From Glycocaulis abyssi (GTDB lineage Bacteria > Pseudomonadota > Alphaproteobacteria > Caulobacterales > Maricaulaceae), in NCBI RefSeq assembly GCF_041429775.1, contig NZ_CP163421.1:496001-560000 (forward strand): a stretch of 64,000 bases of DNA. The letters are read 5' to 3'. Below the pieces are notes generated by a model. It saw only the letters and a program-made list of their open reading frames with translations, did no database searches and was not told the DNA's origin. Of this stretch, positions 7,809 to 63,231 are shown piece after piece. Within the stretch, counting starts at the first letter, position 1, and each line of letters opens with the position of its first letter. The translations under genes and the position numbers were made by a program.

Positions 7809-7829
7809 AAGGCTTCGCTCGTCATACTT

Positions 7830-7924
7830 CGTCATTCCAGAAAGCGCGTCAGCGCTTATCTGGAACCCAGATGATTTTAAAAAGTCTGGGTTCCGGACCT
7901 CGCTAACGCTCGCCCGGAATGACG
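7830..7924. repeat. CGTCATTCC-type intergenic palindromic repeat
   Basis: The outer arms CGTCATTCC (7830-7838) and GGAATGACG (7916-7924) are perfect inverted repeats. Inside are a hairpin AAGCGC-GTCA-GCGCTT, an inverted pair GGAACCCAGA (7862-7871) / TCTGGGTTCC (7885-7894) around an AT-rich loop, and a third weaker arm. This three-arm cloverleaf matches the well-known dispersed CGTCATTCC/CGTCATCCC repeats of alphaproteobacterial chromosomes. It lies between thiG and the VOC gene and could act as a transcript boundary. Confidence 0.85.
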
Positions 7925-8001
7925 AGGCGGGTAGCCATACCCTTGACATGTTCCTATAATGTTCTGATCCTCCAAAGTCACCGGAACAAGGAACTCCGCC
8001 C

Positions 8002-8421
8002 ATGATGGAAGCTCGCCTATCCCTCGTCACGCTAGGCGTGGCGGATATCGCGCGCTCCAAAGCCTTCTATGAGGCGATGGGATTCAAGACCGCGTTCCAG
8101 AACGAGCAGATTGTCTTCCTGCCGATGGGCGGGCTGGTGCTGGCGCTCTTCGGCAAGCACGACCTTGATGCCGACATGGCGCGCGAGAACTCCGGTCATG
8201 GCCATATCGCGCTCGCGCACAACACCCGCAGCGAAGCGGAGGTCGATGCCATTATCGATCATGCTGTGGCGAGCGGTGGCAGCCTGCTCAAAGCTGCGCA
8301 CAAGGCCGATTGGGGCGGGTATTCGGGCTATTTCGCCGACCCGGACGGCCATGCATGGGAAGTCGCCTACAATCCCCATTGGACGATAGACGCCGAAGGG
8401 CGGATCAATATGGCTCCCTGA
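8002..8421 (+). CDS. VOC-family (glyoxalase/bleomycin resistance-like) protein
   Basis: This 139-residue protein has the vicinal-oxygen-chelate fold pattern: two beta-alpha-beta-beta-beta units, with ARLSLVTLGVADIARSKAFYEAMGF at the start, HGHIALAHNTRSEAEVDAIIDHA in the middle, and the hallmark GGYSGYFADPDGHAWEVAYNP at about 109-129. Metal ligands in the family are His/Glu on these strands; the His in HGHIALAH and Glu in WEVAYNP are candidates. The substrate cannot be told from the sequence. It stands alone between the palindromic repeat and the convergent DsbA-like gene. Confidence 0.88.
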   Translation: MMEARLSLVTLGVADIARSKAFYEAMGFKTAFQNEQIVFLPMGGLVLALFGKHDLDADMARENSGHGHIALAHNTRSEAEVDAIIDHAVASGGSLLKAAHKADWGGYSGYFADPDGHAWEVAYNPHWTIDAEGRINMAP

Positions 8422-8436
8422 CGGAGCGCGCCCTCG

Positions 8437-9171
8437 CTAGTTCTCCAGCGCGGCGGCCACGATCCGGTTCAGCCGTCCGATATCGGCGCCGGGTATGATG
8501 TCGCCGCCGATCACGAAGAAGGGCGTGCCGCTGACCCCTATCGAACGGGCCAGCTGATACACGCTGTCGAGATGTTCCTCGATTTCCGGCGAAGCCATGG
8601 CTTCGCGCAGCGCGTCCGGCTCGATGCCGTGTTCGGCGGCGATAAGCTCGATGCGTTCGGCATTCATCGGTGAGCCGGCCTGCATAAGCGCATTGTGAAA
8701 ATCGCGGTAGGTGTCGGGAGACAGGCTCCAGACCGCCAGCGCCGCGCGGGCGGCCTCCTCTGAAGCCTGTCCCAGCAGCGGCAGCTCCTTGTAAACGACC
8801 CGTATGCGCCCCTCATGGCGCTCCATTACGTCTTCCAGCCAGTCATTCACCTGCACGCAATACGGGCAGCGATAGTCGAAGAATTCGACAATGGTCAGCT
8901 CGGCATCTTCCGGGCCGGCCACCGGGTCTCTTGCATCCTCGTAGATTGCGTCGCGATACTCCTGCGCCCCGGCGATCAGCTGGGCCTGTTCGCGCGCGCG
9001 CGCGCGGCGCTGCAATTCCACGATGGCTTCCTCGATCACCTCCGGGTTTTCCACGATATAGCGATGCACGATCTGTTCGATGGCCGAGCTATCGGTTTCG
9101 TCGGTGTCGCCATTGGCGGGTGAGCAGGCAACAAGAAGGCCGGCGGCCAAAAGGCCAGTCAGAAAACGCAT
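8437..9171 (-). CDS. DsbA-family thiol:disulfide oxidoreductase lipoprotein
   Basis: The product has 244 residues from the ATG at 9171. I chose that start because it begins directly with a lipoprotein signal (MRFLTGLLAAGLLVAC, lipobox LVAC with Cys at residue 16). An N-terminal helical segment (residues about 28-75) is followed by a thioredoxin-like DsbA domain with the active site CPYC in FFDYRCPYCVQVNDWLE at about 99, and the cis-Pro loop VSGTPFFVIGGDIIPGA near the end. It is like the Com1/DsbD-gamma type of periplasmic oxidoreductases that form or shuffle disulfides in envelope proteins. It is downstream of, and on the same strand as, an M48 protease gene, 17 bases apart, so the two envelope quality-control proteins are probably made together. 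Confidence 0.92.
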   Translation of the reverse strand: MRFLTGLLAAGLLVACSPANGDTDETDSSAIEQIVHRYIVENPEVIEEAIVELQRRARAREQAQLIAGAQEYRDAIYEDARDPVAGPEDAELTIVEFFDYRCPYCVQVNDWLEDVMERHEGRIRVVYKELPLLGQASEEAARAALAVWSLSPDTYRDFHNALMQAGSPMNAERIELIAAEHGIEPDALREAMASPEIEEHLDSVYQLARSIGVSGTPFFVIGGDIIPGADIGRLNRIVAAALEN

Positions 9172-49653: not shown

Positions 49654-49979
49654 CGCTGGTAATAGTCATTCTGAGAGATCGAGCCGTCGCCAGTGACCCC
49701 GTGCCGACAGCGGGCTGGCTGGTCCGGCTGGTTGAAACCAGCATTCCTTCATCCGAAAGCCCGCCTCACAACAATTTGGCCAACTCTACGGCGATCATCG
49801 TATACCCCCTGCCAGAATGATAACTAATATCCTGGTTCGCAATTTGTGGTGTCAGCTGCTACGGCGTCCATAGCTGGCGAGCGGCCTGCCGGATAGCACT
49901 ATTGGCGCAAACGAAACGGACACGTCGAGCGCACCTGCGCGCTGAGCGTGATTGAGTATTGGGTTCGGGGGACAATCTG
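49654..49979. other. Non-coding gap between response regulator and autotransporter
   Basis: No convincing gene is seen. A hairpin GCTGGT-TGAA-ACCAGC lies at 49727-49742 without a T-run. The part 49790-49870 is less GC-rich (ATGATAACTAATATCC) and could hold the autotransporter promoter, as the start is only about 110-180 bases further. Further open frames on the minus strand look like shadows of nothing. Confidence 0.5.
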
Positions 49980-52900
49980 ATGATGCGGGTCGGCTTTAGT
50001 GCGCGTGACGTTAGTCGCAGCAGCAGCGAGCTTATTCTCTTTCCCAGGGGCAAGGGAGTCTCGGCGCTGCCACGAACTCCGAGGCTCACGGCCTCCGGTT
50101 CCAGGCAATGTGGGCACCTGCGTTCAGCCCTGATGGCGGCGACCATGCTGGCCGGTGCAGGCGCGCTGGCAGCGCTCATGCCGCAGCAAGCGCTGGCTCA
50201 GTTTCTTATTAGCGGTGGTGCGCACGAAATTGTGGACGGCGACGGCATCGGTGCGGGCACGCCTCCCGCCACTCAGATCAGCGTCTGGAATACCGGCAAT
50301 CTCTATATTGGGTTTTTGAGCAACGGCACGTTAACGGTGCGCAATGGCGGGCGGGTCGGGAGCGCGACCGGATGGCTTGGATTTGATTTTGGTGACGCTG
50401 GCAATGTCACCGTCACCGGCGCGGATTCGGAGTGGATCAATTCAGGTGATCTTTTTGTCGGCTATTTCGGCAATGGCACGCTGACGATTTCCGATGGCGG
50501 GCGGGTGGAGAACACGACCGGAAGGATTGGATTTGAGTTTGGTGCCACTGGCGATGTTACCGTCACCGGCGACGGGTCGGAGTGGGTCAACTCTGACGTT
50601 CTGACCGTCGGCGATGACGACAATGGCACGCTAATCATCTCTGATGGCGGCAGGGTCAGCACAACCAGCTTGACGATTGGCGCCAATGCCGCCGGCACCG
50701 GCACGCTCAGTTTCGGCGCGGCGGCGGGCGATGCGGCCGTAGCGGCGGGCACGCTCGACACCCCCACCATCGCGTTCGGCCCGGGCACCGGAACCATCGT
50801 CTTCAACCACACCGATAATGATTTCGAGCTCGATGCCGACATTTCCGGTGCTGGCACGATCCGGCTTCTGTCCGGGCGCACCATTCTTTCGGGCAATAGC
50901 AGCTATACCGGCGACACGCTGCTGGAAGTCGGAACGCTGACGCTGGCCAGCGACAATGCGCTGGGCAGCTCGACGCTCCGCACGACCGGCTCTGTGGTGG
51001 ATTATGCGGACGGGGTGGACATCTCGAACGCCATCGTCATCGACTCCAATACCACTCAGTTCCAGGTGCTGACCGGCTCAGCCACGCAGTCGGGCGTGAT
51101 CTCGGAAAACAACGGCCCGCGCCCGTTTGAGAAGATCGGCGACGGTGAGCTGGTCCTGACGGCGGCCAATACCTGGACCGGCGACACGACCATCACCGGT
51201 GGCACACTGACCTTTGATGGGGGGTCGGTAAGTCTGGCGGCGAACAGGTATTTTTATATCGGCCGCCAGAATGGTGATGACTCTACGCTCAATATCCTCA
51301 ATGGCGGTTCGGTCAGCAGCCAGTTTGCCTATATCGGTGATGACGCCGGTTCAGCGGGCCTGGTAACCGTGTCCGGTGCCGGTAGCCTGATGATGAACAG
51401 CGCCGAAACGACGGTCGGGAGAAGCGGTACCGGCACGCTCAACATCGAAGATGGCGGTGAGGTAAGCAGCACGCGCTCGTGGATTGGCCGGTTTGCCGGA
51501 TCAAATGGTACTGCCAGTGTGACGGGCACGGACAGCCTGTGGACGCATTCAGTCTATCTTGTAGTGGGCACCGCGGGCGATGGCGATCTCACCATTTCTG
51601 ACGGCGGCAGTGTCGAGGTGGCCGACCAGGGCGTCTGGATCGGAGAGATGGCCGGCTCGATTGGTGCCATAACCGTTACCGGCGCAGACTCCAGCCTGGT
51701 CAATACCGGAACGGCCCTGCGCGTGGGTAATGCTGGCTTTGGCACCCTGACCATCTCCGATGACGCCGGAGTGACAAATACCGACGGCTATATCGGCGTT
51801 GGTGCCGGCTCTACGGGCGAAGTGACGGTCACGGGGGCGAATAGTAGCTGGACCAACTCCAATCACGTCTATGTTGGCTATTCCGGCGATGGAACGCTCA
51901 ACATCGAGAATGGCGGGCATGTTTCCGGCGTTGAAGGCTGGATCGGGCGATTTGCCGGCTCAAGCGGCATTGTGACCGTCACCGGCGCGGATAGCCGGTG
52001 GACCAGTTCCAGCCGTATCTATCCGGGTATTGAAGGCGATGGAACGCTGATAATCGCCGATGGCGGTGAGGTTGTCAGTGCCGGTGGCACTCTCGGCTTT
52101 TTTGCTGCTGGAACTGGCAATACAACCGTCACAGGCCCAGATAGCCGGTGGACGAACACTGACGGCCTGACTGTAGGGGCTAACGGCACCGGCATACTGA
52201 CCATCGCCGATGGGGGCTCGGTCAGTAATACGGTCGGCGTCATTGGCAGTGGTGCAACCAGCAATGGTTCGGCCATTGTCACCGGCGCAGATAGCATATG
52301 GATCAATTCATCCGAGCTGCGCGTCGGCAGTAGCGGCGATGGCACGCTGACCATTGCGGATGGCGGTGTGGTCAACAGCAATGGCGGCCTCGTGGGAGCC
52401 GATGCCGGATCCAGCGGGACAGCAACCGTTACCGGGGCGAACAGCACATGGAATACCGGCTCTTTGCGTGTCGGCCGGTTTGGCGACGGTACGCTGACCA
52501 TTTCCAATGGCGGCACGCTGACCAGCGTGAACGCCATTGTGGCAGCGCAGGCAGGGTCGAGCGGCAGCGTGACCGTGACGGGCAGCGGCAGTAGCTGGAC
52601 CTCAACCAACTATCTGGATGTGGGTGATTTCGATACCGGATATCTGACCATTGCCGATGGCGGAACGGTCACCAGCGCGACGGGGCGGCTTGGCTATTAT
52701 TCAGACGGCGACGGGCATGTGACCGTCACCGGCGCGGACAGCAGCTGGAGCATGACCGGCCTGCTGAGCGTCGGGCGGATTGGCGCAGGCGCGCTGACGA
52801 TTGCTGATGGCGGCGAGGTCAGCAATGCCATCGGCTATATCGGTGAACAGGCCGGCTCCACGGGAGCCGCGGCCGTCACGGGCGCAGGGTCGAGCTGGAT

Positions 52901-55900
52901 CAATAGCGATCTGTACATCGGGAACTCCGGCGAAGGCACGCTGACCCTTTCCGATGATGGCGAGGTGAGCGCCGATGAGGTGATAATCGCAAACAACGCA
53001 GGCTCGACTGGCACTGTGTATATAGGCTCTGATGGCGTTGCGCCGTCTGGCGCGGGCATTCTCAATACCCCGTCGGTGACCTTCGGTGCCGGGACCGGGG
53101 CGCTGGTGTTCAATCACACCAATTGCTGCGGGCTGTTTTTTGACGCCGATATCTCCAGCGATCCGCTCGGCCAGGCCTTTATCCTTCACGCCGAGGGGCT
53201 GACCCATCTGACCGGTAACAGCGCCGGATTTGCAGGCGACGTCATTGTCGGTGGTGGTGCGCTGTCGGTCGATGGCACGCTGGGCTCGGGCGATGTGGCA
53301 CTGGGCGTGGATGGGTCGGGCTTCCTGACAGGCAGCGGCACGATTGGCGGGGATGTTCTGGTCAGTGGCGGCACGCTTCTTGGCACATCGGGCGCCACGC
53401 TCACCATTACCGGTGATCTGGAACTGGACGCCGGTTCGTTCGTGATCGCGGCGCTCGGCGCACCGGGCGATGGCGAGCTGTTCGCCGTCGGCGGCGATCT
53501 GACGCTGGACGGCACGCTGGACGTGATCGACATGGGAGGCTTTGGCCCCGGTCTCTACGGGCTTTTCACTTATGGCGGATCGTTGACCGATAACGGGCTG
53601 GCGCTGGGCTCAGCGCCGGTGGCAGACCTTCTGCCGGGCGAGCTGACGATCCAGACAAGCGTGGCGGGCGAGGTGAACCTGGTCTCCAATATTGGCGTCG
53701 ACCTGCTGTTCTGGGACGGCGATGATCCTGCCAATGCACTCAATGGCCTGATCGATGGCGGGGACGGTGTGTGGAGCGCCAATTCCTTCACCTTCACCGA
53801 TGCCGACGGGCTCGTCTCTGGTCCCTCCCGGCCGACGCCCGGCTTCATCGTGTTCTCCGCCGCCGCCGGCAATGTCACGGTCGATGATAGTGACGGTGAG
53901 ATCGAAATCGCGGGCGCGCAGTTCGCGGTCGATGGCTATGTCATCGATGGCGATGGCATAACGCTTGCTGGCAATGGCGATGGCGACGCGATCTTCCGCG
54001 TCGGTAACGGCACTGGCGCGGGCGCAGCCTTCACCGCCACCATTGGCTCGGACCTTGTCGGCGATGCGGCTCTGGTCAAGACCGATCTCGGCACCCTCAT
54101 CCTGACCGGCCATAACAGCTATACCGGCGGAACCGAGGTGCGCAGCGGCACGCTCATCGGCTCAACCGCTTCGATCATGGGCGATATCGCCAATGATGGC
54201 GTGGTGGTGTTCGATCAGGCGGGGGATGCCGCGCTGGATCAGGCACTGTCCGGCAATGGCCTCGTCCGCTTTACCGGTGGAGCCGAGTTCACCCTTGGCT
54301 CTGGCAACAGTTATGCCGGCGGCACCCAGGTCTTCGGCTCGCAGCTCGTGCTGACGGCCGGCGACAGCGCGGGCACGGGCGCGATCACGCTCAATAACTC
54401 CAATACCGCTTATGGTGACGGCATCACCGTTTCCAACACCCTGACCTTCTCCGGCACGAACGAACTGCAGGTGCGGTCAGGCACGGCCACCCATGCAGGC
54501 CATGTGACCGGCGGGGGCGATCTGGGTCTCACCGGGGCGGGTACGCTCATCTTCACGGGCAATGGTTCGGCCTTTACAGGCAACACCATCATCACCGGCA
54601 ATGTGCTGATGAACGGCACGCTGGGGGGCACGATCGAGGTGGCCGATGGCGGCATGTTACGCGGCTTTGGCACGCTGGGTTCGACCACGGCCCTGGCGGG
54701 CTCGACCATCGCGCCGGGCAATTCGGTTGGCACGCTCACCATTGACGGTGATCTCGTGTTTGAGGACGGCTCGCTTTACGAGGTGACGGTTGCAGCCGAT
54801 GGAAGCGCTGACCTGATCGCCGTCAGCGGTGCGGCCACTATCAGTCCCGGCGCGGTTATCACGGTCGGGTCGGCATCGGGAATATCCGTCGGTGCTCCGA
54901 CAGTCGTGTTGTCCGCCGCTGGCGGCGTAACCGGATCATTCCAGTTCGGTGACATGATTACCGGCCTGCCGTTCATCACCAGTGCGGTGGAGACAGACGG
55001 CGACGATGTTACGCTGTTCTTCGGACGCAATGAAACGCCCTTTGCTTCGTTCGCCGCCGGCGGGAATGCGGCGTCGGTGGCGCAGGCCGCCGATACGCTC
55101 GGCTCAGGCAATCCGCTCTGGCAGGCGCTTGTGTGGCTCGACGCAGCCTCTGCTCCGCTCGCCTTCGAAGCGCTCAATGGCGAGATACATGCCACGCACC
55201 GCCAGCTGGTGCTGGATGAGACCATCCATACCCGCCGGGCCGTCACCTCGCGGCTGGCTGCTGCCCGTAGCGAAGAGACCGGGTCAGCATGGATCAGCGG
55301 GCATTTCGGCGGCGCGCAGCTTGGCAGCCGCGATGGCGCATCGCGCGTTTCGGCTGACACGTCCGGCGTGATGCTGGGTCTGGATACGCCGGTTAACGGG
55401 GATGTCCGTATCGGCGTCATGGCTGCCTTTGGCGAAACCGCGTTCAACATCACCGGGCGCAGCGCGGCTGGCCTGGCTGAAAGCCGTTCGCTGGGCGTCT
55501 ATGGTGGCGGCCAGTTCGGCGGCTTTGGCCTCAGCGCAGGCGCGATCTATGGCTGGCATGATCTGTCCACCAACCGCCTGGTCAGCTTCCCCGGCATCAA
55601 CGAGCACATAAACTCCAGCCACAGTGCTGACAGCGTGCAGGTGTTCGGCGAAGCCAGCCTTGCCGGGCCGGCCGGTTTTGAGCCCTTCCTCTCACTTGCT
55701 CATGTCCGCCTTGATACCGGAAGATTTGCCGAGGCGGGCGGTGTTTCCGCGCTCGCCCTTGACGGCGAAACCCGCCAGATGACGCAAGGTAGGCTTGGCA
55801 GCCGCTTTGCCCATGACTGGCAGGCAGGTGATACGGCGCTTCGTTTTGAGGGCTCGCTTGGCTGGCGGCGCGTGTTCAGCGGACATCGCCAGTTCGTCTC

Positions 55901-56087
55901 CGGCAATCTGGCTGGCGCTCCGGTCTTCTTTGAAGGCAATGGCGTTGACCGCGATGCGGCGGCCATTGAGGCGGGCATGGTGATCGAGCCGCTTGGCGGG
56001 ATCAGCCTGGAGCTGGGCTATGCGGGCGAGATCGGCTCCAACGCCCGCAATCACGGCGCCGAGTTCCGCGCACGGTGGGCGTTCTAA
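49980..56087 (+). CDS. Giant autotransporter (type Va) with about 15 T-type repeats
   Basis: The protein has 2035 residues from ATG 49980 (or 49983). The N-terminus is an extended signal (about 74 residues; hydrophobic HLRSALMAATMLAGAGALAAL, cleavage after PQQALAQ). The passenger is beta-helical: three repeats (about residues 107-237), an autotransporter-type spacer with NTWTGDTTITGGTLTF, then about twelve repeats of 49-52 residues (about 422-1018) with the pattern VTVTGxxSxWxNSxxLxVG, GxGTLTIxDGGxVxSxxG, IGxxAGSxG. Then PATR-like strands (GHNSYTGGTEVRSGTLIG and similar). The beta-barrel takes the last ~266 residues (SAWISGHFGGAQLG to FRARWAF), with the terminal Phe read by the Bam complex. 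It is exposed at the surface; adhesion is a guess. No protease motif was seen. Confidence 0.93.
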   Translation: MMRVGFSARDVSRSSSELILFPRGKGVSALPRTPRLTASGSRQCGHLRSALMAATMLAGAGALAALMPQQALAQFLISGGAHEIVDGDGIGAGTPPATQISVWNTGNLYIGFLSNGTLTVRNGGRVGSATGWLGFDFGDAGNVTVTGADSEWINSGDLFVGYFGNGTLTISDGGRVENTTGRIGFEFGATGDVTVTGDGSEWVNSDVLTVGDDDNGTLIISDGGRVSTTSLTIGANAAGTGTLSFGAAAGDAAVAAGTLDTPTIAFGPGTGTIVFNHTDNDFELDADISGAGTIRLLSGRTILSGNSSYTGDTLLEVGTLTLASDNALGSSTLRTTGSVVDYADGVDISNAIVIDSNTTQFQVLTGSATQSGVISENNGPRPFEKIGDGELVLTAANTWTGDTTITGGTLTFDGGSVSLAANRYFYIGRQNGDDSTLNILNGGSVSSQFAYIGDDAGSAGLVTVSGAGSLMMNSAETTVGRSGTGTLNIEDGGEVSSTRSWIGRFAGSNGTASVTGTDSLWTHSVYLVVGTAGDGDLTISDGGSVEVADQGVWIGEMAGSIGAITVTGADSSLVNTGTALRVGNAGFGTLTISDDAGVTNTDGYIGVGAGSTGEVTVTGANSSWTNSNHVYVGYSGDGTLNIENGGHVSGVEGWIGRFAGSSGIVTVTGADSRWTSSSRIYPGIEGDGTLIIADGGEVVSAGGTLGFFAAGTGNTTVTGPDSRWTNTDGLTVGANGTGILTIADGGSVSNTVGVIGSGATSNGSAIVTGADSIWINSSELRVGSSGDGTLTIADGGVVNSNGGLVGADAGSSGTATVTGANSTWNTGSLRVGRFGDGTLTISNGGTLTSVNAIVAAQAGSSGSVTVTGSGSSWTSTNYLDVGDFDTGYLTIADGGTVTSATGRLGYYSDGDGHVTVTGADSSWSMTGLLSVGRIGAGALTIADGGEVSNAIGYIGEQAGSTGAAAVTGAGSSWINSDLYIGNSGEGTLTLSDDGEVSADEVIIANNAGSTGTVYIGSDGVAPSGAGILNTPSVTFGAGTGALVFNHTNCCGLFFDADISSDPLGQAFILHAEGLTHLTGNSAGFAGDVIVGGGALSVDGTLGSGDVALGVDGSGFLTGSGTIGGDVLVSGGTLLGTSGATLTITGDLELDAGSFVIAALGAPGDGELFAVGGDLTLDGTLDVIDMGGFGPGLYGLFTYGGSLTDNGLALGSAPVADLLPGELTIQTSVAGEVNLVSNIGVDLLFWDGDDPANALNGLIDGGDGVWSANSFTFTDADGLVSGPSRPTPGFIVFSAAAGNVTVDDSDGEIEIAGAQFAVDGYVIDGDGITLAGNGDGDAIFRVGNGTGAGAAFTATIGSDLVGDAALVKTDLGTLILTGHNSYTGGTEVRSGTLIGSTASIMGDIANDGVVVFDQAGDAALDQALSGNGLVRFTGGAEFTLGSGNSYAGGTQVFGSQLVLTAGDSAGTGAITLNNSNTAYGDGITVSNTLTFSGTNELQVRSGTATHAGHVTGGGDLGLTGAGTLIFTGNGSAFTGNTIITGNVLMNGTLGGTIEVADGGMLRGFGTLGSTTALAGSTIAPGNSVGTLTIDGDLVFEDGSLYEVTVAADGSADLIAVSGAATISPGAVITVGSASGISVGAPTVVLSAAGGVTGSFQFGDMITGLPFITSAVETDGDDVTLFFGRNETPFASFAAGGNAASVAQAADTLGSGNPLWQALVWLDAASAPLAFEALNGEIHATHRQLVLDETIHTRRAVTSRLAAARSEETGSAWISGHFGGAQLGSRDGASRVSADTSGVMLGLDTPVNGDVRIGVMAAFGETAFNITGRSAAGLAESRSLGVYGGGQFGGFGLSAGAIYGWHDLSTNRLVSFPGINEHINSSHSADSVQVFGEASLAGPAGFEPFLSLAHVRLDTGRFAEAGGVSALALDGETRQMTQGRLGSRFAHDWQAGDTALRFEGSLGWRRVFSGHRQFVSGNLAGAPVFFEGNGVDRDAAAIEAGMVIEPLGGISLELGYAGEIGSNARNHGAEFRARWAF
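51245..53035 (+). repeat. Tandem ~150-bp repeats inside the autotransporter gene
   Basis: About twelve units follow one another at 147-156 bp spacing; the GTxACCGTCACCGGCGC-like part is at about 51363, 51513, 51669, 51822, 51972, 52122, 52275, 52422, 52569, 52719 and 52869. A further cluster of three units lies at about 50300-50690. The units are diverged at the DNA level but keep the protein pattern, so they are old or selected for exchange. They correspond to the T-type autotransporter repeat (TIGR04393-like). Confidence 0.9.
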
Positions 56088-57019: not shown

Positions 57020-57123
57020 TTTCTGTTGCTTGGCGGAAAGTTGGCCCCAGGCATAAATTTTAATTTGACCTGTCCGTCAGGTTGCAAGACGCTTTGATGC
57101 ATTCAGTTATGGGGGCGTGATTG

Positions 57124-57336
57124 ATGATTTTTCCCTGCCTTTCACCTTTGGTGCTGGCTGTTTCTGTGGCTGTCTCGGCGCAGTCTGGCGGAACCACCAC
57201 GGAAACCTACACCTATGACGCGCGTGGCCAGCTGGTCGATGTCCAGCGTAGCGGCGGCGTCAATCACGGCATCCGCACCGAATACACGTACGATGCCGCT
57301 CTCAACCGGATACGCAAGAAGGTGACCGGAGCCTAG
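57124..57336 (+). CDS. Secreted mini RHS/YD-repeat protein
   Basis: The protein has 70 residues from ATG 57124. A signal peptide (FPCLSPLVLAVSVAVSAQS, cleaved about residue 20) is followed by a single pair of YD units: TETYTYDARGQLVDVQRSGG and TEYTYDAALNRIRKKVTG. The Tyr-Asp pattern is that of RHS proteins, and the following gene is a large RHS protein. It has its own start, stop and an intrinsic terminator that begins inside its last codons, so it looks like a complete small gene and not just debris. The function is unknown; it may be a remnant of an older RHS gene or a secreted accessory. Confidence 0.65.
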   Translation: MIFPCLSPLVLAVSVAVSAQSGGTTTETYTYDARGQLVDVQRSGGVNHGIRTEYTYDAALNRIRKKVTGA

Positions 57337-57353: not shown

Positions 57354-57434
57354 GTGCCTGGGCGCGCGGGCGTATGTCCGCTGGTTCAATTTCAGATTGG
57401 GTTTGTTTTCAGATTTAAAGCGGGGATTGCGGGA

Positions 57435-60400
57435 ATGGGGCTGCTTGCTGCGGGATTTTTCACACGGACGTTTTCTACGTTTCGAGCGATGCCACGCCTG
57501 GCCAGTTTGATGGCTGCCATCGCCTCCTTCCTTTTTGCTGCAGAGGCTGTGCAGGCCCAGATCTTGCCGGAGGAGGGTCATGCCTTTCCGCTGGTCAACC
57601 CGGCCTTTGACGATAATGGCGTGGATATGGCCACCGGCCTGTTACAGGCCGCGATTCCGGTCATATCCATTGGCGACCCTGATGCCGGGGGGCTGAGCTA
57701 TACGCAGATATTCACCGGCAATGACTGGCGTCACAGCCTGATGGGATCGGTCAGGGTGAGCGGCACGCAATACACGATCAGCCTGGGTGGCGGTGCCGAA
57801 ATTTTCACCAAGTCGGGCAGTACGTTTACCCCGAACAGGCCGAGCGGCACGACGCTGACATATAGCAGCTCGACGGGGATCTATACCTACACGCTGAGTG
57901 ACGGCACGGTGGTAGAGTACGACGAGGCCAATCTGGGTGATGCCAGCGGTGTCGCCCTCATCCAGGCCAATATCGTCTCGGTGACGCGTCCCAATGGCAG
58001 CCGGATGGATTATCACTACCGCAGCGTCACGGTATTCGAGCAGATTGCCTCCTGGCCGGAACCGGTCATCATCCCTTACACGTATTTCCGCCTGCAGTCG
58101 GTGACGACCAATCGTGGCTATCAGTTGCACGTGCACTACCAGCGCGATTCCCATCCGGGCGGGAACCTCACTCAGACCATGCCGGAATGGTGGAATGCCA
58201 CCGGGGTCACCCTGTTTAACCTGACGCAGGATTATTGTGAGCCGACGGCGGCCTTTTCCTCATGCAGCTTTTCACAGACCTGGCCGGAGCTGACATTCCA
58301 GAATGTCAGCTCCACCGAGCGTACCTATACCGATACGCTCGGCCGGGTGACGCGCATCACGCGCGCGGGCAACGGGAATGTCACCCGCATCCGCCACCCT
58401 GGCAGTACAAGCGACGATGTGATCATCAGCTATGCATCGGGCCGGGTCTCCTCGGTCAACCAGAACGGTCTCGTCACGAGTTACACCTATGCTGATGCTG
58501 GCGGCCAGCGCACCACGACGATGACGAGCCCTCTGGGGCATACGCAGGTGGTGGTGTCGAACCTCTCGACGGGTCTTCCGGTCTCGAGCACGAACGGGAC
58601 GGGCCATACGACGAGCTTTCTTCATGATAGCCATGGCCGGGTGACGCGGGTCACCTACCCGGAAGGCAATCAGGTACGCTACACCTATGACGCGCGCGGC
58701 AATGTCACCGAGGTGCGCCGCGTCGCCAAGCCATCTACGGGTCTGGCCGATCTGGTGACGAGCGCGGGCTATCCGTCCTCGTGTTCGAACCCTGTGATCT
58801 GCAACCGGCCCTTGTGGACCGAGGATGCGGCCGGCAACCGGACCGATTACACCTACAACACGACCCATGGCGGGGTGCTGACAGTGACCGCGCCGGCGCC
58901 ATCAGGTTCGGGCGCGCGTCCACAGACGCGTTATACCTACGCCTCGCTGTATGCGTTTTATAAGAACTCCACAGGCAATATCGCACAAGCGCCATCTCCT
59001 GTGTGGCACCTGACGCAGGTCTCCACCTGTTCCAGCGGCACCTCGCCCTCGTGTGTAGGCACGGCAAACGAGACGCGCACCACGATCAGCTATGGCTCGG
59101 CCGGGGTCGCCAATAACCGCCTGCCGGTCTCGACCACGGTGGCGGCAGGTAATGGCACGCCCTCATCGACCGTGACGCAGAGCTATAATGTGGTCGGTGA
59201 CGTGGTCTGGAGCCAGCCAGCCGTGGGCGGGTCTGCGGCGCGGGTGCACTATCATTACGATGCGTTGCGCCGGCCTGTGGGGGTAATCGGGCCGGACCCT
59301 GATGGCGGCGGGCCTCTTTTACGCCGGGCTGCGCGCATCGGCTATACGACAGCGGGCCAGGAGGCGTTCGTCGAGCGCGGCACGGTGACGGGTACGGGTC
59401 TCTCGCATCTGAACGCTATGAGCGTGCTGGAGCGCCAGGAGACCGAGTATGATGCGCTTTACCGGCCTGTCATCGCCCGGCTCAAATCCGGCTCGACCAC
59501 GCTGGCCCTGCAACAGGTGAGCTATGATGCTGACGGCCGTCTGCAATGCTCGGCGGTGCGCATGAACCCTGCCCAGTTCGCCTCGCCCCCGTCTGATGCG
59601 TGTGTGCCAGGCACGCCCGGCGCCCATGGCCCTGACCGGATCACCCACCGCACCTATACCGCCGCCAATCAGATCAGCATCGTGCGCAATGGCTATGGCA
59701 CCTCCGAGGCGGGCATCGATGCGCGTTACAACTACCGGGCCAACGGGCATGTCGCCTATGTGCGCGACGGGGCGAGCAACCGCACCACCTATGTCCGCGA
59801 CGGCCATGACCGGCTCTCCCAGATCCGTTACCCTCAGGAGACCGTGGGCGCCAATGCCAGCAACAGCGCTGACCGCGAGCAGTTCACCTATGATGCAGCC
59901 GGAAGGCTCGTCACCCACCGGCGCCGGTCGGGCCACAACATCACCTACACCTACGACAATCTGAACCGGATCACGGCGCGCAATACCCCGTCCGGCCAGG
60001 CCAATGCCTCCTACACTTACGATCTCCTGGGCCGGGTGACGCAAGTCTCCCAGACCGGGGGGCACACGCTCTCCTATACCCATGATGCGCTGGGCCGGAA
60101 CCTCACCGCTGTCACCCCGCAAGGCACGGTCAGCTATCAATATGACGCCGCAGGCCGCCGGACCCGGATGGACTGGCCGGACGGGCTCTATGTGACCTAC
60201 AGCTACGATACGGCAGGGGCGCTGACCCATATCCGGGAGAACGGGGCCTCATCGGGCATCGGGGTGCTGGCGGCCTACGCCTACGATAATCTCGGCCGGG
60301 TGACCTCCATCACGCGCGGCAATGGGGTGGTGACCGGGTTCGATTATGATGCGGCGAGCCGGCTGACCGAGCTCACCCAGGATATGGCCGGCACGGCGAA

Positions 60401-61775
60401 CGACCAGACCCTCTCCTTCACCTATAATGCGGCCGGCCAGATCGCCAGCCGCACCATGGCCAATGACATCTATGCCTTTACCGGGCATGTGAACCAGGAT
60501 GTCACCCTCACCGTCGATGGCCTCAACCGCTTCCTCTCTGGCGGCGGTGTCACCTACGATTACGATGATCGCGGCAATATGACCGCCGATGGCGTGCGCG
60601 CCTACGCCTATGACTTCGACAACCGGCTCACCTCCGTCACCGGCGGGGGCACCGGGAACGTCTCCCTCACCTACGATCCGGCAGGCAGGCTCTACCAGAC
60701 AGCGCAGGTCTCGGGCGCCACGACCCGCTTCCTCTATGACGGGGCGAACCTGATCGGGGAGTATGACGCCTCCAACACCCTGCTGCGCCGCTATGTGCAG
60801 GGGCCGGGCCTCGATGCGCCTCTGGTGCGCTATGATGGCACGGGCACGACGAACCGCCGCTGGCTGATCACCGATGAGCGCGGCAGTGTGGTCGCCGAGA
60901 CCAATGCCTCAGGCGCAGCCGTGCAGATCAACACCTATGACGAGTATGGCATGCCGGGCTCGGGCAATACCTCCCGGTTCGGCTATACCGGCCAGATGTG
61001 GATCGCCGAAATCGGCCTCTACCACTACCGCAACCGGGTCTATAACCCTAACCTGGGACGGTTCATGCAGACCGACCCCATCGGACAAGCAGGCGGCATA
61101 AACCTCTACGCATACGTCAGCAACGATCCGATCAATTACACCGATCCCTGGGGGCTGCAGAAGAACCCGATAGAGGTAATGTTTATAATCGGCACCCGTC
61201 TAAGGGGCGTCCTGCGCTCAGGCGGCACAGCGGGCTTTAGCGGTTTTGCAGAACCGCCAGATGACATCGTCCTCACACCCATCGCCCTACAAAACGCAGA
61301 CGGACAGGAGGGGGAGGAGCCACATCCGTGCCCCACCGGCAATACGCCGTGGGTTGGTCCAGCGCCTTGGGATAGGCCGGTACTTCCCGTGCATCAGATG
61401 CCACGGGGCGCACAATCTATTATGCGGGGAGCGATACGCTCTGAATATACTGATCCGTCTGATGGGTCAGTGCGGCTGAGGTTTGGCCCGAATCCGTCTT
61501 TTATCCAGAGTCTAGATGAAACCGGGGCGTATTGGCTTCACAGTCCTGATCGACCAGCTCCATCGGCTTTCGCCACACCCGAGGAACGAAGCAATACTGT
61601 GAGAATAATGCCCCCAGGCATGGGGAGCGGAAGATCAGGGCAGAGCTTTGCTGGCAATTATCCCGGCGGATATTTTATTGTTTACAATAACACTGGGCAA
61701 CCAATTTCGATTTATGACGGCCGCCCCGGCGAAGCTTCTGCAACCCACAATCCAATCGCCTGTATAAGAAGGTAG
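57435..61775 (+). CDS. RHS repeat protein, probable polymorphic toxin
   Basis: The product has 1446 residues from ATG 57435 (ATG 57489 is the alternative start; both give a Sec signal ending AAEAVQAQ). Residues about 40-330 are a beta-rich entry part (HAFPLVNPAFDDNGVDMATG). About 330-1240 is a series of YD repeats, e.g. VRYTYDARGNVTEVRR, FTYDAAGRLVTHRRRSG, ITYTYDNLNRITAR. The RHS core ends with YHYRNRVYNPNLGRFMQTDP and NLYAYVSNDPINYTDPWGL at residues about 1205-1241. After DPWGL the last 205 residues (from 61158) differ from any repeat: a variable C-terminal domain with RIMPPGMGSGRSG and YPGGYFIVYNNTGQPISIYD and HNPI near the end. No known toxin fold was recognised. Base composition falls towards AT at the end of the gene. 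Confidence 0.9.
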   Translation: MGLLAAGFFTRTFSTFRAMPRLASLMAAIASFLFAAEAVQAQILPEEGHAFPLVNPAFDDNGVDMATGLLQAAIPVISIGDPDAGGLSYTQIFTGNDWRHSLMGSVRVSGTQYTISLGGGAEIFTKSGSTFTPNRPSGTTLTYSSSTGIYTYTLSDGTVVEYDEANLGDASGVALIQANIVSVTRPNGSRMDYHYRSVTVFEQIASWPEPVIIPYTYFRLQSVTTNRGYQLHVHYQRDSHPGGNLTQTMPEWWNATGVTLFNLTQDYCEPTAAFSSCSFSQTWPELTFQNVSSTERTYTDTLGRVTRITRAGNGNVTRIRHPGSTSDDVIISYASGRVSSVNQNGLVTSYTYADAGGQRTTTMTSPLGHTQVVVSNLSTGLPVSSTNGTGHTTSFLHDSHGRVTRVTYPEGNQVRYTYDARGNVTEVRRVAKPSTGLADLVTSAGYPSSCSNPVICNRPLWTEDAAGNRTDYTYNTTHGGVLTVTAPAPSGSGARPQTRYTYASLYAFYKNSTGNIAQAPSPVWHLTQVSTCSSGTSPSCVGTANETRTTISYGSAGVANNRLPVSTTVAAGNGTPSSTVTQSYNVVGDVVWSQPAVGGSAARVHYHYDALRRPVGVIGPDPDGGGPLLRRAARIGYTTAGQEAFVERGTVTGTGLSHLNAMSVLERQETEYDALYRPVIARLKSGSTTLALQQVSYDADGRLQCSAVRMNPAQFASPPSDACVPGTPGAHGPDRITHRTYTAANQISIVRNGYGTSEAGIDARYNYRANGHVAYVRDGASNRTTYVRDGHDRLSQIRYPQETVGANASNSADREQFTYDAAGRLVTHRRRSGHNITYTYDNLNRITARNTPSGQANASYTYDLLGRVTQVSQTGGHTLSYTHDALGRNLTAVTPQGTVSYQYDAAGRRTRMDWPDGLYVTYSYDTAGALTHIRENGASSGIGVLAAYAYDNLGRVTSITRGNGVVTGFDYDAASRLTELTQDMAGTANDQTLSFTYNAAGQIASRTMANDIYAFTGHVNQDVTLTVDGLNRFLSGGGVTYDYDDRGNMTADGVRAYAYDFDNRLTSVTGGGTGNVSLTYDPAGRLYQTAQVSGATTRFLYDGANLIGEYDASNTLLRRYVQGPGLDAPLVRYDGTGTTNRRWLITDERGSVVAETNASGAAVQINTYDEYGMPGSGNTSRFGYTGQMWIAEIGLYHYRNRVYNPNLGRFMQTDPIGQAGGINLYAYVSNDPINYTDPWGLQKNPIEVMFIIGTRLRGVLRSGGTAGFSGFAEPPDDIVLTPIALQNADGQEGEEPHPCPTGNTPWVGPAPWDRPVLPVHQMPRGAQSIMRGAIRSEYTDPSDGSVRLRFGPNPSFIQSLDETGAYWLHSPDRPAPSAFATPEERSNTVRIMPPGMGSGRSGQSFAGNYPGGYFIVYNNTGQPISIYDGRPGEASATHNPIACIRR

Positions 61776-61777
61776 AA

Positions 61778-62122
61778 ATGACAACAGATAAATTGAAACG
61801 CGACATAAGCATGCACCTTCCAGCAATGTTTAATGATGTATTTATCATGGAGTATAGCATTATGCTTCATTCAAAGAAAATTATTGTTGAAATATCTACT
61901 AAGTTCATTGTTTGCATTAAAGATAATATCTATATTATTAAGCCGCCATTTACAACAAGTGAATTTAACAGCTTAAACTATAGAAACAAGAAGCTCACCA
62001 GCATCGATGTCAATGATAAGTGCGTAATTCTTAAATTCGATTTAGAAGAAATACATGTACCTTACGGCAACAACCCAGAGTCTATTTCCATCACATTTGA
62101 AAGCAATTATATTGTTTTGTAA
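61778..62122 (+). CDS. Candidate immunity protein of the RHS toxin
   Basis: The protein has 114 residues. It starts two bases after the RHS stop, with AAGG overlapping the stop codon as its ribosome site, so it is coupled to the toxin gene. Its DNA is very AT-rich (about two thirds A+T by eye, against a third in the neighbours), rich in Lys, Asn and Ile codons with A/T ends. The protein has no signal peptide and no membrane segment; it is predicted mainly beta (IIVEISTKFIVCIKDNIYII, VNDKCVILKFDLEEIHV). I know no family. A small foreign-looking gene directly behind an RHS variable end is the normal position of the immunity gene. Confidence 0.72.
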   Translation: MTTDKLKRDISMHLPAMFNDVFIMEYSIMLHSKKIIVEISTKFIVCIKDNIYIIKPPFTTSEFNSLNYRNKKLTSIDVNDKCVILKFDLEEIHVPYGNNPESISITFESNYIVL

Positions 62123-62322
62123 ATAGATTTCAATCTTTCATTTAATGTGACGATTTATATATTTGCATGTTGCAATAGCTCAATTTAAGGTATCAGCGAC
62201 AATTAAGAGGTTTTTGTGGCATAATATACCGCCTTGCATTCTATACCGAACATCGTCGGCCAGACGGGGCCTTTTATCCCGCGCCCGTCCTCGGCGCTGG
62301 CGCGCTTGCAAGCGAGGCGGGC

Positions 62323-62400
62323 TGCACCATAGCCAACTACATCTACGCCTTTACCGGTCACACCAACCAGGATGTGACGGTGACGGTCGATGGCCTGTAG
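62323..62400 (+). pseudogene. Orphan fragment of RHS core sequence
   Basis: 62323-62397 matches 60450-60524 of the large RHS gene at about 59 of 75 positions by hand count, in the same reading frame sense: ANYIYAFTGHTNQDVTVTVD against ANDIYAFTGHVNQDVTLTVD. A TAG stop follows at 62398. The region 62123-62322 before it contains AT-rich sequence and an open frame without a start, and no other gene is seen. Such stray core pieces after an immunity gene are typical of displaced RHS ends. The gspK stop follows 16 bases later. Confidence 0.8.
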
Positions 62401-62415
62401 CCGATCGCCAATCAC

Positions 62416-63231
62416 CTAATCTCCAAAACACGGCCTACTATCTGCAGATACTCTCTCCGCCCACTCGAACACCAGGGCCGGAGCTTCCGGTGCCGACGTA
62501 AGCAGGATGGTGGATCGCGCGTCGTGCGGGGCATGCTGCTCGCTCGCGGTGAAGGTCCAGCGCGCGGCGTGTGATGGATAGTCCGGGACGGATGCCCGGG
62601 CGCGCACGGCAGGATGGGCGGCGATAGCGGGGTCGGCAGAGCTGTTTGCGGACAGCAGGGTAAAATGCCCTGCGAGACATTCTGCCTCGTTGGCTGTGAG
62701 CCCGGCCACAAGCGCGAGCTCGGCCATGCTTTCGAACGGACGATTGGCACGCGGCGGCAGGCCTGCGGCTTCGTAATCGGCCAATGTGGCAGCGTTGAGC
62801 CGGGATGAACCTGCCGGTTCACGCCAGTCCGCTATCGTGTCGGCGAGCGCGGCAGCACGTGAGGGAGATGCCCCCAGCACTTCCAGGAATGCCGCCAGCG
62901 ATATCGCGTCGATATGGTTGAGATCAGGCCATGCGGTCGTTGGCCGGGCTTCCACTGTGATGTCGCGGCCATTGATAGTGTAGGTGGCCGAAAACGGAAC
63001 CGGCTGGGTTGGAAGGCGTCCGAGTTCGTGCACGGCCCGGATCGTGGCACCTTCCAGCGTCATGCGCTCTTCAACCTCGCTCACCAGAAGCTCGGCCCTG
63101 ACCACCGCGCGCCAGGCCAGCGCCAGACTCATCGACCCGACGAGCGCGAGGGCAAGAGACAACCAGAGCGCGCTGATGAGCGCGAAGCCGGCCTCGGCCT
63201 CACTCCTCGATAAGAAGTACGTTGCGGGCAT
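62416..63231 (-). CDS. gspK: Type II secretion minor pseudopilin GspK
   Basis: The product has 271 residues from ATG 63231, with GAGGGA upstream in the gspD end. The N-terminus is a prepilin leader: SRSEAEAGFALISALWLSLA, cleaved before Phe, followed by a hydrophobic helix (about 16-36). Residues 150-270 have GspK-like sequence: AALADTIADWREPAGSSRLN, FESMAELALVAGLTANEAE (SAM-like helical domain). Instead of the large calcium-binding domain of E. coli GspK the middle is fairly short. In the family it caps the pseudopilus tip with GspI and GspJ. The start lies 32 bases inside the gspD gene, which shows coupling. Confidence 0.88.
   Translation of the reverse strand: MPATYFLSRSEAEAGFALISALWLSLALALVGSMSLALAWRAVVRAELLVSEVEERMTLEGATIRAVHELGRLPTQPVPFSATYTINGRDITVEARPTTAWPDLNHIDAISLAAFLEVLGASPSRAAALADTIADWREPAGSSRLNAATLADYEAAGLPPRANRPFESMAELALVAGLTANEAECLAGHFTLLSANSSADPAIAAHPAVRARASVPDYPSHAARWTFTASEQHAPHDARSTILLTSAPEAPALVFEWAERVSADSRPCFGD

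Follow-up and report, generated by a model that had tools for sequence, protein, structure and literature searches.

Introduction

The closest described counterparts of the locus analyzed here, an RHS gene of Glycocaulis abyssi and the small gene that follows it, are found among RHS proteins and small polymorphic toxins of other bacteria. According to extracts of the paper on Photorhabdus Rhs1, the self-cleavage site of that protein lies after two DPLGL motifs that are 17 residues apart (PMC8636562). The Bacillus cereus toxin PT7 is called, in a passage of a review, a non-specific DNase bearing no likeness to known nucleases (PMC9990079). Ntox30 is listed by Zhang et al. 2012, in the portion of the text available, as all-beta with the signature 'RxH, R THIP' and as a predicted metal-independent endo-RNase (PMC3482391). 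For DUF6188 (PF19686), Pfam gives no function. The locus lies near the end of a stretch of 64,000 nucleotides (contig NZ_CP163421.1, positions 496,001 to 560,000), which as a whole is called the window below. With high confidence, we read it as an exported polymorphic RHS toxin together with its immunity protein. The type of system is ordinary, whereas the toxin domain, which no curated model covers, and the very divergent immunity gene are unusual.

Overall organization of the locus

The RHS open reading frame (ORF) runs from 57435 (ATG) to 61775 and encodes 1446 residues, with an alternative upstream GTG start possible at 57354. Pfam RHS_repeat matches it in 11 stretches (E = 2e-45), and the NCBIfam model TIGR03696 (Rhs_assc_core) covers residues 1168-1241 (E = 1.4e-23), placing the core end at residue 1241. 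RHS/YD repeats and an RHS-associated core thus precede a variable tail, as is characteristic of RHS polymorphic toxins. The core closes with DPWGL at 61143-61157, and 18 residues separate this five-residue motif from DPIGQ. Judged from its motifs, this two-DPxG end is built like the self-cleaving aspartyl protease found in Rhs proteins. The features of the locus are as follows.

57435..61157, plus strand: RHS carrier, with a signal-peptide-like N terminus (by eye), YD repeats and a core with the DPIGQ...DPWGL end
61158..61373, plus strand: linker behind the core, also present in other RHS tails of the same genome and outside the toxin domain
61374..61772, plus strand: putative toxin domain, 133 residues (family hidden Markov model (HMM), 24-sequence alignment, AlphaFold2 model)
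61602-61757, plus strand: conserved core of the toxin domain, with the invariant positions of the 24-member alignment
61766..61772, plus strand: Shine-Dalgarno-like AAGAAGG within the last toxin codons, 5 nt upstream of the next ATG
61778..62122, plus strand: candidate immunity gene, 114 residues, predicted by AlphaFold2 to be all-beta plus one helix
62283..62396, plus strand: decayed RHS core remnant behind the immunity gene (core residues about 1002-1031, one in-frame stop)

The original prediction, made from the letters of the window alone, had described 205 residues beyond DPWGL, and these are indeed present at 61158-61772, containing RIMPPG, YPGGYFIVYNNTGQPI and THNPI; the true last residues are ACIRR, downstream of HNPI. 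Its view of the whole tail as the variable domain was too wide. The tail begins much like another RHS tail of the genome and then diverges, so that the linker takes up the first ~60-70 residues and the toxin domain residues ~73-205; a toxin of all 205 residues was rejected on the same ground. Identity of the linker with the tail of an orphan RHS locus is 79% over residues 1-62 and 60% over residues 1-90; the two remaining full-length RHS genes have tails that match it at 38% over residues 1-70. Base composition changes along with these parts, as GC content drops in steps from 0.63 in the core to 0.60 in the linker, 0.53 in the toxin domain, 0.49 in its last 180 bases and 0.31 in the small gene.

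A scattered toxin family with a downstream gene

On its own, the toxin tail has no sequence match in Pfam, NCBIfam or the PDB. A profile scan with the toxin domain through genome contigs of 84,980 species yielded 26 family loci (one being the query's own source) in several phyla, with carriers among Actinomycetes, Planctomycetota, a metagenome-assembled genome of Dormiibacterota, Roseithermus, Pseudomonas, Burkholderiaceae, Terasakiispira and Marinicaulis. An HMM built without the window sequence finds the window tail at E = 2e-14, or at 5.1e-13 when Marinicaulis is also left out; the best of 500 shuffled sequences reached 0.004. In 25 of the 26 loci, a small ORF on the same strand lies directly behind the toxin stop. 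The toxin/immunity layout proposed originally is therefore upheld, both by these relatives and by the exchange of tails and downstream genes on one conserved core described below.

The toxin alignment holds 24 sequences and the set of downstream genes 23. Locus L063 was omitted from both alignments because its frame is lost behind the toxin, and L059 and L061 because they nearly duplicate L058. The 24 members are not explained by any model of Pfam or PHROGs. PCF11 repeat matches of three of them (0.0012) fall, by eye, in low-complexity flanks and were taken as chance, as was a DUF779 match of query P0006 (0.16).

Close relatives are few. At E<=0.01, 19 of 398 genomes of the order matched, of which the own genome, G361 and G104 were kept; of the other 16, two (L009 and L010) were dropped after ORF inspection and 14 as chance from the alignments alone. 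Two of these matches are real relatives: G104, the alphaproteobacterium Marinicaulis flavus (now Hyphococcus luteus), has an RHS tail, and G361 has an orphan remnant. That remnant sits in a row of candidate immunity genes (L006, G361:C135), in which an upstream 95-residue ORF is followed by the toxin remnant with its stop, a 128-residue candidate and a membrane protein ORF. In a separate search, 3 of 385 genomes matched and the own genome alone was kept; match L036 was discarded as lying inside an unrelated ORF. A relative on a Streptomyces plasmid is annotated as a HINT polymorphic toxin and is followed by a DUF6188 gene (DUF6188 E = 1e-30). The toxin domain itself found, among plasmids, two Streptomyces californicus records at E 0.2 (taken as chance) and the known NBC_00690 record at 0.6. 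Query P0001 gave 43 candidate stretches in genome contigs, none of them confirmed; alignment A1 had no match in viral contigs, query P0004 none in phages, and Foldseek of the toxin model against viral models returned nothing at E<=0.001. The family is rare: within a set of 61 genomes from one actinobacterial family, the toxin is confined to the centre genome. By sequence, then, it is a scattered, unnamed family distantly related to one toxin of solved structure.

Eight positions (domain numbering) are invariant in all 24 aligned members: R77, M79, P81, G99, Y100, P110, G116 and H125. The AlphaFold2 model of the domain has a mean pLDDT (predicted local distance difference test) of 69.6, rising to 88-89 at residues 101-120, and is confident in the core only. 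Beside the invariant Met, 17 of the 24 members have an acidic residue and the window domain a proline, which could be taken to mean that the tail is dead or harmless, its activity lost or its function that of a structural end only, with the ORF behind it a passenger. This is improbable in our judgment: the window domain retains all eight invariant positions in an open frame, behind it stands an undamaged immunity ORF preceded by a ribosome-binding-like site, and the same proline recurs in six other Pseudomonadota members, at least four of which, from different genera or species, have intact downstream genes.

Relationship to PT7 and Ntox30

The original prediction recognized neither the toxin fold nor the immunity family. 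It remains true that no curated sequence model matches either, but the toxin family reaches PT7, and the downstream genes of the relatives mostly belong to DUF6188 (20 of 23). Among 177,635 PDB sequences, one was matched well by the family profile, chain B of 8OWU (E = 1.5e-4), an entry titled as the Bacillus cereus polymorphic toxin PT7 bound to its immunity protein. Of 2000 shuffled versions of this sequence none scored better than 0.39, versus 3.1e-6 for the real one, and hhalign of the toxin family against 8OWU gave a probability of 89.6%. Foldseek of the predicted toxin also ranks 8OWU first (probability 0.54), the next entries having probabilities of at most 0.06 among the best 50 matches; because its E is 0.66 despite the top rank, the fold part of the likeness is weak when taken alone. 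The profile-profile search and separate structure predictions proposed with the original prediction led to 8OWU for the toxin and to no significant match for the 114-residue protein.

By sequence or fold likeness to 8OWU the domain is PT7-like, though it appears to lack an acidic residue at PT7 position 37. The residue mutated in 8OWU (D37A in the title) aligns, by inferred placement, with Met in 24 of 24 members, and a Listeria relative has Asp at the position of the invariant Met. Since PT7 D37 appears to fall on the invariant Met, homology alone transfers the enzyme class, and it does not extend to the catalytic residue. A literature search for 8OWU returned nothing.

On these grounds the toxin domain is probably a nuclease, with DNase appearing somewhat likelier than RNase. 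The same pair might carry an RNase instead, a branch of the Ntox30-type toxins with their conserved R and THIP and a predicted metal-independent, two-histidine mechanism. The description of Ntox30 cited above fits such a toxin, the consensus of our alignment ends in THIPL with an invariant Arg, and one Ntox30 gene, split over two frames, has by eye a similar motif order. Nevertheless, we consider an RNase unlikely: none of the 24 members matches any Pfam-A Ntox30 model (PF15532) at E<=0.1, the family has a single invariant histidine, and the one relative whose activity has been reported, PT7, is termed a DNase in the review passage. The own genome has no match to the Ntox30 model either. The Terasakiispira genome (L072/L080), which holds a member of the toxin family, also contains a frame-broken Ntox30-type gene.

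The candidate immunity protein

The 114-residue ORF was located two bases behind the RHS stop, and we find it at 61778-62122. Its composition was said to be unlike the rest of the window; with a GC content of 0.31 versus 0.637 it is the lowest-GC stretch, and all 12 lowest of 4244 sampled 345-base stretches overlap it. An ORF of this length and place is unlikely to arise by chance, because, of 20000 sequences simulated with the same dinucleotide composition, only 4 had an ORF that began within 12 nt and extended for 114 codons or more. AlphaFold2 models the protein with a pLDDT of 88.8 and a predicted template modeling score (pTM) of 0.81.

No significant match to the protein was found in Pfam, NCBIfam or PDB sequences, a Pfam CEP104_N match (0.041) being far below the cut-off and taken as chance. 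Across the 398 genomes of the order it occurs in the own genome only; the plasmid search returned none, and Foldseek of its model against the PDB nothing at E<=0.001. Neither HMM nor hhalign comparison with DUF6188 profiles gave a match, and the DUF6188 Pfam model has none in the own genome at 1e-5.

Among the relatives' downstream genes, the 20 that match DUF6188 do so at E<=0.1 (best 7.3e-35), and their Pseudomonadota group reaches DUF6188 in hhalign at 93.6%. We favor the view that the 114-residue protein is a divergent relative of these DUF6188-like genes, based on its position, its predicted all-beta fold and a whole-protein alignment with the downstream genes of the 23 relatives; it would be too divergent to be placed in DUF6188 by profile search. 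It is also conceivable, though we doubt it, that the toxin is as described and the 114-residue protein is an unrelated protein in the immunity position. The lack of any HMM or hhalign signal speaks for this, as do the mutually unrelated immunity genes behind the other tails of the genome; the position, fold and alignment just given lead us to prefer the DUF6188-like relative.

DUF6188 is not exclusive to this toxin. Of 13 DUF6188 genes counted in 10 genomes picked for carrying the toxin, 10 adjoin it and 3 do not, and exclusivity was rejected accordingly. One of the three unpaired genes (L093, Saccharopolyspora subtropica) has no toxin upstream and, by eye, nearly duplicates the paired DUF6188 gene of its own genome, which makes it an orphan immunity gene. 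A literature search for the name DUF6188 returned none.

Tail exchange within the genome

Counting the window gene, three RHS genes of the genome are full-length; the cores of the others are 97-99% identical to that of the window gene, and the three carry two unrelated kinds of tail. The other two genes form an inverted pair around 2.54-2.56 Mb; their sister tails are 89% identical and, apart from the linker, unrelated to the window tail. Further tails occur as three orphans with partial cores. Except for the sister pair, all these tails are alike in the first 90 residues at most. The small genes behind them, with a GC content of 0.31-0.48, have no mutual BLAST match at E<=0.01, again excepting the sister pair (62%). 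Different tails and immunity genes are thus found on one core, as expected of RHS polymorphic toxins. Of the other tails and of their downstream genes, four each were compared with Pfam, and none had a convincing match.

The core remnant behind the immunity gene has DNA matches of 84-85% (query 1134-1247) to other RHS loci of the genome and a protein match of 70%, with one TAG. On sequence comparison, the tails, small genes and core remnant together form the picture of tail/immunity cassettes that have been exchanged and displaced. Core remnants adjoining immunity genes (window 62283-62396; L069 10616-10699; L070 1525-2078) repeatedly have one end close to core residues 1002-1004, which would fit a preferred site of tail exchange in the core.

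Between the inverted full-length genes (L069, C1:2539500-2558500) lie two orphan tail/immunity cassettes and, by eye, a transposase-like ORF (7827-9035); a similar transposase ORF is present at L071 (9918-11102). The orphan tails at L070 2473-3393 (minus strand) and L069 5955-7415 are partly alike (39% over about 90 residues) and have H-x-H like stretches, which we take to be reminiscent of JAB-type tails; they have no Pfam match.

Export and neighboring genes

No gene for the type VI secretion system (T6SS) sheath protein VipB/TssC (PF05943) was found in the own genome, with a positive E. coli control, and delivery by a T6SS was rejected on this basis. Because no sheath gene was found, export via Sec, perhaps with the flanking type II system, is the proposed route. 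A GspK-like gene adjoins the RHS locus (62416-63231, minus strand), and GspD-, GspF- and GspE-like genes lie within the next 11 kb; these assignments are best matches, all below the NCBIfam curated cut-offs.

Immediately upstream of the RHS gene, a 71-residue ORF with YD-like repeats (57121-57336) is, by eye, perhaps an RHS remnant. Farther upstream lies an autotransporter-like ORF of 2042 residues (49959-56087) with 13 stretches of type V secretion system/PEP-CTERM-associated repeats.

Discussion

The following mechanism is proposed. The sequence shows an RHS protein whose conserved core is followed by an exchangeable tail, formed by a shared linker and a toxin domain of ~130 residues. Going by its motif, the core would free the tail through self-cleavage behind DPWGL. 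The RHS protein would exit the cell by Sec, perhaps using a type II system encoded by the flanking genes. Distant homology to PT7 and motif likeness to Ntox30 suggest that the toxin is a small, mostly beta nuclease that would kill neighboring bacteria, with DNA the likelier substrate; the strongest catalytic candidates are the invariant Arg 77 and His 125. Translated right after the toxin, the 114-residue protein would bind and block it, and is probably a very divergent DUF6188-like member.

A toxin family that merits a name and has no curated model is now tied to a solved structure, which makes the activity of the family testable, and the invariant positions mark the residues worth testing. 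For DUF6188, a family of unknown function, a role in immunity is suggested. RHS biology gains a genome in which one near-identical core bears several tail/immunity cassettes with no T6SS sheath gene.

More tentatively, the RxM domain may be a third branch, beside PT7 (RxD) and Ntox30 (RxH), of one superfamily of small-beta toxins, with its own chemistry on Arg 77, Met 79 and His 125 and not on the aspartate of PT7. DUF6188 and its divergent Pseudomonadota relatives, including the 114-residue protein, might then form a superfamily of immunity proteins accompanying this branch in different phyla.

Compared with described systems, the locus shares with Photorhabdus Rhs1, as presented in the extracts (PMC8636562), two DP.G motifs at the core end, a variable tail and then an immunity gene. 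Rhs1 is described there as a T6SS effector, whereas the window protein has a signal-peptide-like N terminus in a genome with no VipB. DUF6188 accompanies most relatives' toxins, while the 114-residue protein itself has no match to the Pfam model. Ntox30, from the available portion of its description (PMC3482391), is all-beta with a conserved R and THIP, as in the toxin family, and is borne by RHS and type VII secretion system carriers; where it has RxH, the toxin family has RxM. PT7 of Bacillus cereus with its immunity protein PIM7 (8OWU) likewise combines a small antibacterial toxin domain at the C terminus with an immunity gene behind it, and in alignments it has the R, P, [NQ]P, G and HIP positions in common with the toxin family.
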